7,421 bases of DNA from Nocardioides sp. (lineage in GTDB: Bacteria > Actinomycetota > Actinomycetes > Propionibacteriales > Nocardioidaceae): assembly GCA_023252065.1 (NCBI GenBank), contig JAHEXO010000096.1:1-7421 (forward strand). The letters are read 5' to 3'. Of the stretch, positions 3,924 through 5,042 are shown one piece after another. The position numbers and the translations under genes are program-made. How positions within the stretch are numbered: position 1 is the first letter of the stretch; each line of letters starts with the position of its first letter. The notes below the pieces were generated by a model, which searched no databases, had not been told where the DNA came from, and was given only the letters and a program-made list of their open reading frames with translations.

Positions 3924-4876
3924 TGCCGGGCAACAGCCAGCGCAAGGGCGCGATCCGCAAGACGTCGAAGAAGCCGACTGCGGGGTCCGGTGGCCGCGTG
4001 CGGCGCGGGCTCGAGGGCAGGGGCCCGACGCCCAAGGCGGCCGACCGGCCCAACCACAAGGCGCACAAGGCCAAGACGCGCTCCGAGCGCGACGCGTCGC
4101 GTCGTCCCAAGCGGCGAGCCGGAGGTGGCGACGACGAGTGGGTGGCCGGGCGCAACTCGGTGGTCGAGGCGCTGCGCGCCGGCGTACCGGTGACCGGGCT
4201 CTACGTCGCGGAGGGCGCGGAGCGCGACGGGCGGCTGCGTGAGGCGTTCAAGATCGCGGCCGACCGCGGCATCTCCTTGCTGGAGGTGACCAAGACCGAG
4301 CTCGATCGGCGTACCGACGGGGCCGTCCACCAGGGCCTCGCCGCCCGGATCCCACCCTATGAGTACGCGCATCCGCGCGACCTGCTCGACGCCGCGGCAG
4401 CGGCCGGCGAGGCTCCGCTGATCGTGGCGCTCGACTCGGTGACCGACCCACGCAACCTCGGCGCGGTGGTGCGCTCGGCCGCCGGCTTCGGCGCCCACGG
4501 CGTCGTCGTCCCCGAACGACGTGCCGCCCGGATGACGCCGGCCGCCTGGAAGACCTCCGCCGGCGCGGCCGCACGGATCCCGGTCGCCCAGGCGACCAAC
4601 CTGGTCCGCACCCTCAAGGACTACCAGGAGGCGGGCTGCCAGGTGCTCGGTCTGGCCGCGTCCGGCGACCTGACCCTGCCCGACCTGCTCGCCGACCGCG
4701 ACCTGGTCACCGGGCCGCTGGTGGTCGTGGTCGGCTCGGAGGGCGACGGCATCGGCCGCCTCGTCGGCGAGACCTGCGACCGGCTGCTCTCGATCCCGAT
4801 GTCGTCGTCGCTGGAGTCCCTCAACGCCGGCGTGGCCGCCTCCATCGCCCTCTACGCGATCGCCCAGTCCCGCTGA
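3923..4876 (+). CDS. rlmB: 23S rRNA (guanosine-2'-O)-methyltransferase RlmB, SpoU/TrmH family
   Basis: A 317-residue SPOUT methyltransferase expected to 2'-O-methylate a guanosine (G2251 in E. coli numbering) in the peptidyl-transferase region of 23S rRNA, using S-adenosylmethionine. Residues 1-70 form a basic, disordered-looking tail (MPGNSQRKGAIRK, RRGLEGRGPTP) that is conserved in actinobacterial RlmB and fixes the ATG at 3923. A substrate-binding domain (WVAGRNSVVEAL, about 73-145) precedes the knotted catalytic domain. The three SpoU motifs are present: DPRNLGAVVR at 175-184 (N178, R184), VVVVGSEGDGIG at 267-278 (E273) and SSLESLNAGVAASIALY at about 295-311 (N301). It is the second gene of the cysS operon. 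Its last codon and stop (CGC TGA) form the first six bases of the mirrored repeat array, so the array begins inside the gene. Related SpoU enzymes that modify tRNA are possible but less likely given the tail and the cysS neighbour. Confidence 0.95.
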   Translation: MPGNSQRKGAIRKTSKKPTAGSGGRVRRGLEGRGPTPKAADRPNHKAHKAKTRSERDASRRPKRRAGGGDDEWVAGRNSVVEALRAGVPVTGLYVAEGAERDGRLREAFKIAADRGISLLEVTKTELDRRTDGAVHQGLAARIPPYEYAHPRDLLDAAAAAGEAPLIVALDSVTDPRNLGAVVRSAAGFGAHGVVVPERRAARMTPAAWKTSAGAAARIPVAQATNLVRTLKDYQEAGCQVLGLAASGDLTLPDLLADRDLVTGPLVVVVGSEGDGIGRLVGETCDRLLSIPMSSSLESLNAGVAASIALYAIAQSR

Positions 4877-4957
4877 CCTGGCACTTGTGTCACCCCGTAC
4901 GACGCTGACCTGGCACTTGTGTCACGCCGTACGACGCTGACCTGGCACTCGCGTCAC
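4871..4957 (+). repeat. Direct half of the array: three copies
   Basis: Copies are at 4871-4893, 4903-4925 and 4935-4957. The first two 32-mers, including their spacers (CCCGTACGA and GCCGTACGA), differ at a single base, which suggests a recent tandem duplication. The variable 4-mer is ACTT, ACTT, ACTC. Both spacers contain the palindrome CGTACG. The rlmB stop codon lies in copy 1 at 4874-4876. Confidence 0.93.
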
Positions 4958-4974
4958 TACTCATGTGCCAGGTC
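4939..4974. terminator. Central hairpin of the array, possible structure-type terminator
   Basis: GACCTGGCAC (4939-4948) pairs perfectly with GTGCCAGGTC (4965-4974) across a 16-nt loop. Flanking copies add outer stems: CGCTGACCTGGC 4903-4914 with 4999-5010, GTGTCAC 4919-4925 with 4988-4994, and further pairing of 4871-4893 with 5020-5042. There is no T-tract. In RNA this would be a long interrupted hairpin just after rlmB. The terminator role is inference; the pairing is seen. Confidence 0.4.
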
Positions 4975-5042
4975 GATGTCGGCTGAGGTGACACGATCGC
5001 CAGGTCAGCGTCTGTGGACGTGACGCGATCGCCGGGTCAGCG
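4956..5042 (-). repeat. Inverted half of the array: three copies
   Basis: On the minus strand the copies are 5042-5020, 5010-4988 and 4978-4956. The first two carry GATC as the variable 4-mer, unlike ACTT/ACTC in the direct half. The third keeps only the core GACCTGGCAC with scattered matches. Spacers are 5011-5019 and 4979-4987 and lack CGTACG. Confidence 0.9.

Follow-up and report, generated by a model that had tools for sequence, protein, structure and literature searches.

U-tract terminators are scarce in GC-rich actinobacteria, and the way in which transcription ends in these organisms is poorly known. Polar, protein-bound direct repeats with near two-turn spacing are found as iterons, at the ends of Tn7 and Mu, and as the Sal-box terminators of rDNA. 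The MIRUs of mycobacteria are actinobacterial tandem repeats that lie in intergenic gaps and contact stop codons. The GTAG and CGTC REPs are described as lying mostly in convergent and unidirectional gaps, with REP ends that can supply stop codons (PMC3733652), and an effect on translation is reported for E. coli REPs no more than 15 nt from stop codons (PMC12306157). TRIP1 of E. coli is described as a GC-rich repeat downstream of genes with a very stable predicted RNA (PMC10888264), and ten CRISPR predictions without adjacent cas genes are reported for the genome of N. dokdonensis (PMC5526307). We found no published description of the repeat family reported here in the literature searched, most of which was open-access.

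The window, the whole stretch of 7,421 nt from a Nocardioides sp. contig that was analysed, has six called genes, for a molybdopterin oxidoreductase, a C39-like peptidase, CysS, RlmB/SpoU, an acyl-CoA dehydrogenase, and a DUF4032 protein. Gene calls, here and for all array placements, were made with a codon-based caller trained on these six genes. The repeat array is located in the gap between the rlmB and acyl-CoA dehydrogenase genes, both on the + strand, and the 3' end of rlmB overlaps it. The features are as follows.

3923–4876, + strand: gene for an rlmB/spoU-type 23S rRNA 2'-O-methyltransferase (Pfam SpoU_methylase, 1.7e-35; SpoU_sub_bind, 8.9e-19)
4874–4876, + strand: TGA stop codon of rlmB/spoU, read from the sequence, within repeat copy 1 (cgcTGAcc)
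4871–4893, + strand: direct copy 1, CGCTGACCTGGCACTTGTGTCAC (repeat comparison and unit-pattern search)
4903–4925, + strand: direct copy 2, identical to copy 1 (repeat comparison and unit-pattern search)
4935–4957, + strand: direct copy 3, variable part ACTCGCG (repeat comparison and unit-pattern search)
4956–4978, − strand: inverted copy, decayed but in register, core match TCGACCTGGC (15/23 by hand)
4988–5010, − strand: inverted copy, variable part GATC (21-letter pattern, 0 mismatches)
5020–5042, − strand: inverted copy, variable part GATC (21-letter pattern, 0 mismatches)
4938–4975, no strand: central inverted repeat made up of the two innermost copies, which face each other, spanning 38 bp from core to core (core positions)
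5067–6221, + strand: acyl-CoA dehydrogenase gene, the co-directional downstream neighbour (Pfam Acyl-CoA_dh_1, _N, and _M)

The initial annotation described a six-copy mirrored array, and three direct, two good inverted, and one decayed inverted copies of a 23-bp unit were indeed found. The steps are 32 and 32 bp between the direct copies and 32 bp between the intact inverted copies, and all three direct/inverted pairs share the centre 4956.5. The inner inverted copy has decayed in place, as had been claimed, and has retained its register. A consistent difference in the variable 4-mer between the two halves had also been reported; it holds for five of the six copies (ACTT, ACTT, and ACTC against GATC and GATC), but the decayed copy has ACAT. 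The location of the rlmB stop codon inside copy 1 had gone unremarked. The arms, 4871–4948 and 4965–5042, are 72% complementary over 78 nt, and the suggested RNA fold, performed on 4865–5050, gave z = −9.85 for the + strand and −7.88 for the − strand, with 0/200 shuffles as good on either strand. Thus, the window array is not due to chance. A T-tract intrinsic terminator (hairpin and U-tract) was not found at 4700–5300 of the window, and membership of a known Rfam family was not supported, with 0 matches to Rfam models at the gathering score over the window. Elsewhere in the window, the cysS codons for LTRQK at 2958–2973 are identical to the start of the unit of genome G166, CTGACCCGGCAGAAG, probably by coincidence.

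The initial annotation had named a unit confined to this locus as a sign of a local duplication without function. The search of relatives showed instead that locus L001, from a Nocardioides MAG (genome G001) whose RlmB is 85% identical, has a like array at the same rlmB stop codon, and that this genome carries many arrays. The + arm at L001 has four exact copies and one weaker, with steps of 32, 31, 31, and 32 bp, and the − arm has three copies, one of them exact, with a step of 32 bp. The unit was not found as an array at rlmB in the other 79 of the 80 orthologous loci. The core-to-core distance across the centre is 37 bp in 7 of the 15 rows listed for the L001 genome (L001, L114, L115, L116, L117, L123, and L124). 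L001 also has a second 32-step array at 6388–6483, with the variant unit CTGACCCGTCAGAAAGGTCAC, between the acyl-CoA dehydrogenase and DUF4032 genes; there is no array at the matching junction of the window (about 6222). At this rlmB stop codon, other Nocardioides have different tandem units, with a step of 22 bp at L002 2526–2611 and L015 4946–5029 and of 22/44 bp at L027 4976–5037.

An intergenic repeat family was among the proposals of the initial annotation, and it is borne out: the window unit recurs dispersed in G001 and G166, and core pairs occur in further Nocardioidaceae. Exact window-type units number 18 + 17 in G001, against 0 + 0 in the backwards control. Among 215 genomes of the genus, 10 have any exact match, only G001 and G166 (11 + 5) have more than two, and the unit forms arrays in 2. 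Tandem pairs of the core TGACCYGKC gave at least one match in 149 of 341 Nocardioidaceae genomes, many of them by chance, and at least 10 in 21 of the 341, with 0–2 in backwards controls. In a class-wide draw, a search for core triples matched 17/394 genomes, with 7/394 for the backwards control; except in G001 and G037, each genome matched at a single locus (G473 at two), and the steps varied; G287, a Nocardioidaceae genome, has a step of 22 bp. No genome outside Nocardioidaceae showed the dispersed family in this draw. The draw also contained a single-locus 31-bp minisatellite with the core inside, at G447 C1:2626425–2626588.

The repeat units differ by species around the common core, and the consensus units run CGCTGACCYGGC... 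Apart from the nine core letters, which the search itself fixes, C(G)C just before the core is conserved, and the species-specific part follows the core. In the 32-bp units, the last 7–11 positions carry only 0.1–0.9 bit, yet their length is constant. G037 has 11 array clusters by hand count. Mirrored, unequal (L111, 10 + 5; L123, 4 + 6), and one-armed forms recur at many loci, so the one-off tandem duplication and inversion put forward in the initial annotation does not account for them. Two 22-step arrays, G240 C1:525361–525493 and G257 C6:707728–707859, have their arms in reversed order (− then +), and in the other reading direction their unit begins TGACGGGTCAC. Several Nocardioides also carry another, distinct REP-like family (units such as GGTCTCGACAAGCTCGACCACCGG), seen at L237 18347–18394, L202 6145–6254, L206 9919–9983, and L232 249–385.

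The core-pair search admitted steps of 19–33 bp. Among the 150 pairs listed, none of which is from G001, 62 have a step of 21–22 bp and 41 a step of 31–32 bp; the remaining 47 include chance matches, minisatellites, and, in G013, a microsatellite of 13 bp. The main step is 22 bp in G075 (76/76 pairs), G102 (56/56), G029 (51/51), G037 (18/18), G003, G240, and G257. It is 21 bp in G062 (31/32 pairs) and G277 (9/11 among the pairs listed, the rest 22), and G319 has a step of 21 bp at one locus. It is 31 bp in G297, where, of the 34 pairs matching a pattern limited to 30–32, 28 have 31 bp and 6 have 32 bp, and the open search gave 9/11 and 2/11, respectively, among the pairs listed. It is 32 bp in G045 (23/24 pairs), G079 (13/15), G302 (9/11 among the pairs listed), G001, G166, and G307, and G023 has both 32 and 22 bp. 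Among neighbour distances below 60 bp, 51/54 in G001 plus the window and 48/51 in G166 equal 32. For the genomes with at least 10 pairs, step and dispersal were read without G119, G127, G155, G158, G186, G202, and G329 (7 of the 21), and the species are related, so the per-genome steps are not independent events. The view in the initial annotation that the register is real, with spacing retained while the linker varies, therefore stands both within genomes and across species. Steps of 21/22 and 31/32 bp correspond to two and three turns of B-DNA; A-form RNA, with 11 bp per turn, would give 22 and 33. We also considered whether the non-coding tandem repeats of Nocardioides follow helical periods in general, and rejected such a law: at 10.5 bp, a first sample of 26 arrays with periods of at least 17 gave p of about 2e-6, but a second of 17 arrays gave about 0.16, the 20-kb samples being the non-random starts of first contigs.

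The placement of 93 arrays, picked by core matches, was analysed (19 from G001 plus the window, 25 from G166, 40 from G075, and 9 from G079); one of them, L001 at 4741, takes in chance matches within a gene. The TGA of a unit is the exact stop codon of a gene in the same direction in 62/93 arrays (11/19, 12/25, 33/40, and 6/9 for the four sets), and only units that read in the direction of the gene were scored. In the G075 regions, which were picked for arrays, TGACCYGKC lies exactly at the stop codon of 32/299 genes. In a broad sample it does so for 16/1556 genes, and all other offsets together gave 4 matches. These counts call for caution, since a TGA stop codon by itself supplies 3 of the 9 core letters. 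The gaps holding the 93 arrays are convergent in 57 cases, co-directional in 32, and divergent in 2, with the remaining 2 without an orientation call, compared with 186 convergent, 576 co-directional, and 192 divergent among 954 background gaps of other Nocardioides (Fisher test, p = 3e-17 for the convergent excess and 2e-6 for the divergent deficit). Mirrored arms are present in 36/57 convergent arrays, compared with 16/32 co-directional ones. Replication polarity was also considered. Clusters are co-oriented with it in 23/28 cases in G075 (a hand count, with a split pair at 1.957 Mb omitted), 10/11 in G037, and 7/8 in G079 (omitting two off-step matches and one mirrored array), but only 18/32 in G102 (omitting two mirrored arrays and three split pairs), all counted from exact pairs on one strand only. 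Replication polarity was rejected because the G102 value is near the gene bias (185/299 genes in the G075 regions).

We suggest, tentatively and with doubt still outweighing confidence, that the array is a row of oriented protein-binding sites which works at the DNA level, as a boundary or terminator at the 3' end. A putative sequence-specific DNA-binding protein would occupy the row of sites from the stop codon on. With repetition every two or three helical turns, the bound molecules would all sit along the same side of the helix and could cooperate. The occupied array would then halt transcription at the end of the gene, or insulate it there, and convergent genes that each carried one arm would give the mirrored form. 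We infer the protein, its cooperative binding, and the block to RNA polymerase; the dispersed family, its frequent stop anchoring, its enrichment between convergent genes, its quantised step, and its conserved core with a variable linker of fixed length are observed. By a narrow margin, we favour the DNA-bound boundary over an RNA hairpin and over a tolerated or selfish repeat because of the helical steps, the fixed-length linker, the stop anchoring, and the convergent enrichment; in particular, the stop anchoring and the two- or three-turn spacing hint at a marker of gene ends that is bound by a protein. Against a boundary, tandem duplication alone gives a constant step within one array, one arm per gene fails to explain the mirrored arms of half the co-directional arrays, and the helical-period test of other tandem repeats failed in its second sample.

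A possible, if rather unlikely, rival is that the transcribed mirrored array forms a very long hairpin directly after the stop codon, which could serve as a two-way terminator lacking a U-tract, an mRNA 3' stabiliser, or a translation brake like that reported for E. coli REPs near stop codons. The strong fold of the window array on both strands is in its favour, as are those of the mirrored G075 and G079 arrays with at least two units per arm, for which z ranges from −7.7 to −19.7 in 14/14. Arrays that appear one-armed (n = 31, folded from the stop codon to the next gene, with 4 further arrays left out for length) have a median z of −3.0, with some near 0; 11 of the 31 have z from −7.8 to −14.9, often with a degenerate opposite arm, and the exact-core search misses such arms, so that the one-armed class is overcounted. 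In swap tests, the innermost variable part of the arm fits its own partner above swapped ones in G075 (p = 0.002) and G079 (p = 0.001), which is hairpin-like and counts against the boundary. The same tests gave no own-partner advantage in G001, where arms of one array are no closer than arms of different arrays, and in G166 nothing beyond the core, for which p was 0.043 in the first test, based on loose unit calls that include chance matches, and 0.46 in the second, in which short palindromes occur among the cores and a few rows are chance pairs. The co-directional arrays are divided: of 30 scored, 13 have z ≤ −5, again a point against the boundary, and 12 have z > −2 (fold scoring left out 5/93 arrays for length or N, 2 of them co-directional). 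The sense RNA is more stable than the antisense in just 7/16 co-directional mirrored arrays, and 27 arms of G075 and G079 scored alone have a median z of −1.24 (range −4.6 to +2.1). The boundary, therefore, does not need a hairpin. Six single units folded alone were little better than shuffles (z from −1.3 to +1.5; the best, that of L121, reached −13 kcal/mol at z = −1.31), the window has no T-tract terminator, and a hairpin leaves the steps of 21/22 and 31/32 bp unexplained. Hence the long transcribed hairpin proposed in the initial annotation may exist in the window, but not all arrays share it, since some one-armed arrays have z near 0; across the set, a hairpin is common among arrays but not universal.

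It is also conceivable, though we doubt it, that the repeat is tolerated or selfish, surviving where it is least harmful, behind stop codons and off promoters, and growing by slippage with no host function. The patchy distribution of the window-type arrays, the species-specific units, and the turnover seen in the second L001 array all fit this, as do the arms, which vary independently in G001 and mostly so in G166. The bias of REPs to convergent and unidirectional gaps and their supply of stop codons, as described in PMC3733652, are a further parallel. However, the convergent preference, the exact stop anchoring, and the helical steps exceed what tolerance predicts. RAYT-driven spread was not supported, as the Y1 transposase PF01797 was found in 0/3 genomes and in 0/19 array-bearing genomes, with controls positive in 5/14; to our knowledge, some REP families have no RAYT. 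Transposon cargo was likewise not supported, with no mobility family among nine distinct proteins encoded between distant arms. Six of the nine belong to ordinary Pfam families (a GNAT protein, a sigma factor, YjbR, a histidine-specific methyltransferase, an FGE-sulfatase-like protein, and DUF6226), and three have no Pfam match.

Very unlikely is a set of C-rich, gene-oriented tandem units that load Rho where translation ends: the gene orientation, the start at the stop codon, and an overall C/G ratio of 1.44 in the 27 lone G075 and G079 arms agree with it, but G exceeds C in 4/5 G079 arms, the G297 unit is G-rich, and a rut site requires neither a conserved core nor a linker of fixed length. 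A misread CRISPR or satellite array has next to no probability. The regular direct repeats and the cas-less predictions in N. dokdonensis (PMC5526307) are parallels, but in place of unique spacers of similar length we found linkers of about 10 bp or none, arms that are often mirrored, many loci, and stop anchoring.

Gene ends of Nocardioidaceae thus carry helically phased direct-repeat arms, often anchored at the stop codon and often mirrored, and a boundary on the DNA is the mode of action that we would propose for them. A stop codon fused to an oriented, phased array with a convergent bias makes a protein-dependent gene-end mechanism open to direct test. The family also has two spacing classes one helical turn apart on a common core, which would be unusual among bacterial interspersed repeats. 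The family may also account for some of the CRISPR predictions without cas genes in Nocardioidaceae.

How does this family compare with the known systems? A repeat of the BIME kind, as suggested in the initial annotation, is apt as an analogy only. REPs and BIMEs are described as dispersed extragenic repeats of 20–40 bp, often species-specific, in convergent or co-directional gaps and near or supplying stop codons (PMC3733652; PMC12306157), and the present arrays share the extragenic setting between convergent or co-directional genes in 89/93 cases. Unlike REPs and BIMEs, the six single units folded form no palindromic stem-loop, and the arms are blocks of direct repeats with a step of 21/22 or 31/32 bp and the core TGACCYGKC. 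The copies are mostly ordered as a + block and then a − block rather than in alternation, with a few mixed strings in a looser scan. The REP tag GTAG or CGTC is absent from the unit ends; CGTC is internal in the G001 consensus and absent from those of G166, G075, and G079. TRIP1a differs in being, as described, 266 bp long, at a handful of fixed loci, and tens of bp from the stop codon. MIRUs are longer and are not known to be mirrored or helically quantised. Compared with iterons, the ends of Tn7 and Mu, and Sal-boxes, the window family is located at many chromosomal gene ends, and its binding protein is putative. In its most specific form, which we regard as improbable but worth stating, the comparison would be that Nocardioidaceae tag dozens of gene ends with arrays to which a rapidly evolving DNA-binding protein attaches. 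Such arrays, beginning at the stop codon and phased by two or three helical turns, would serve as polar, protein-dependent roadblock terminators, a bacterial counterpart of the Sal-box.
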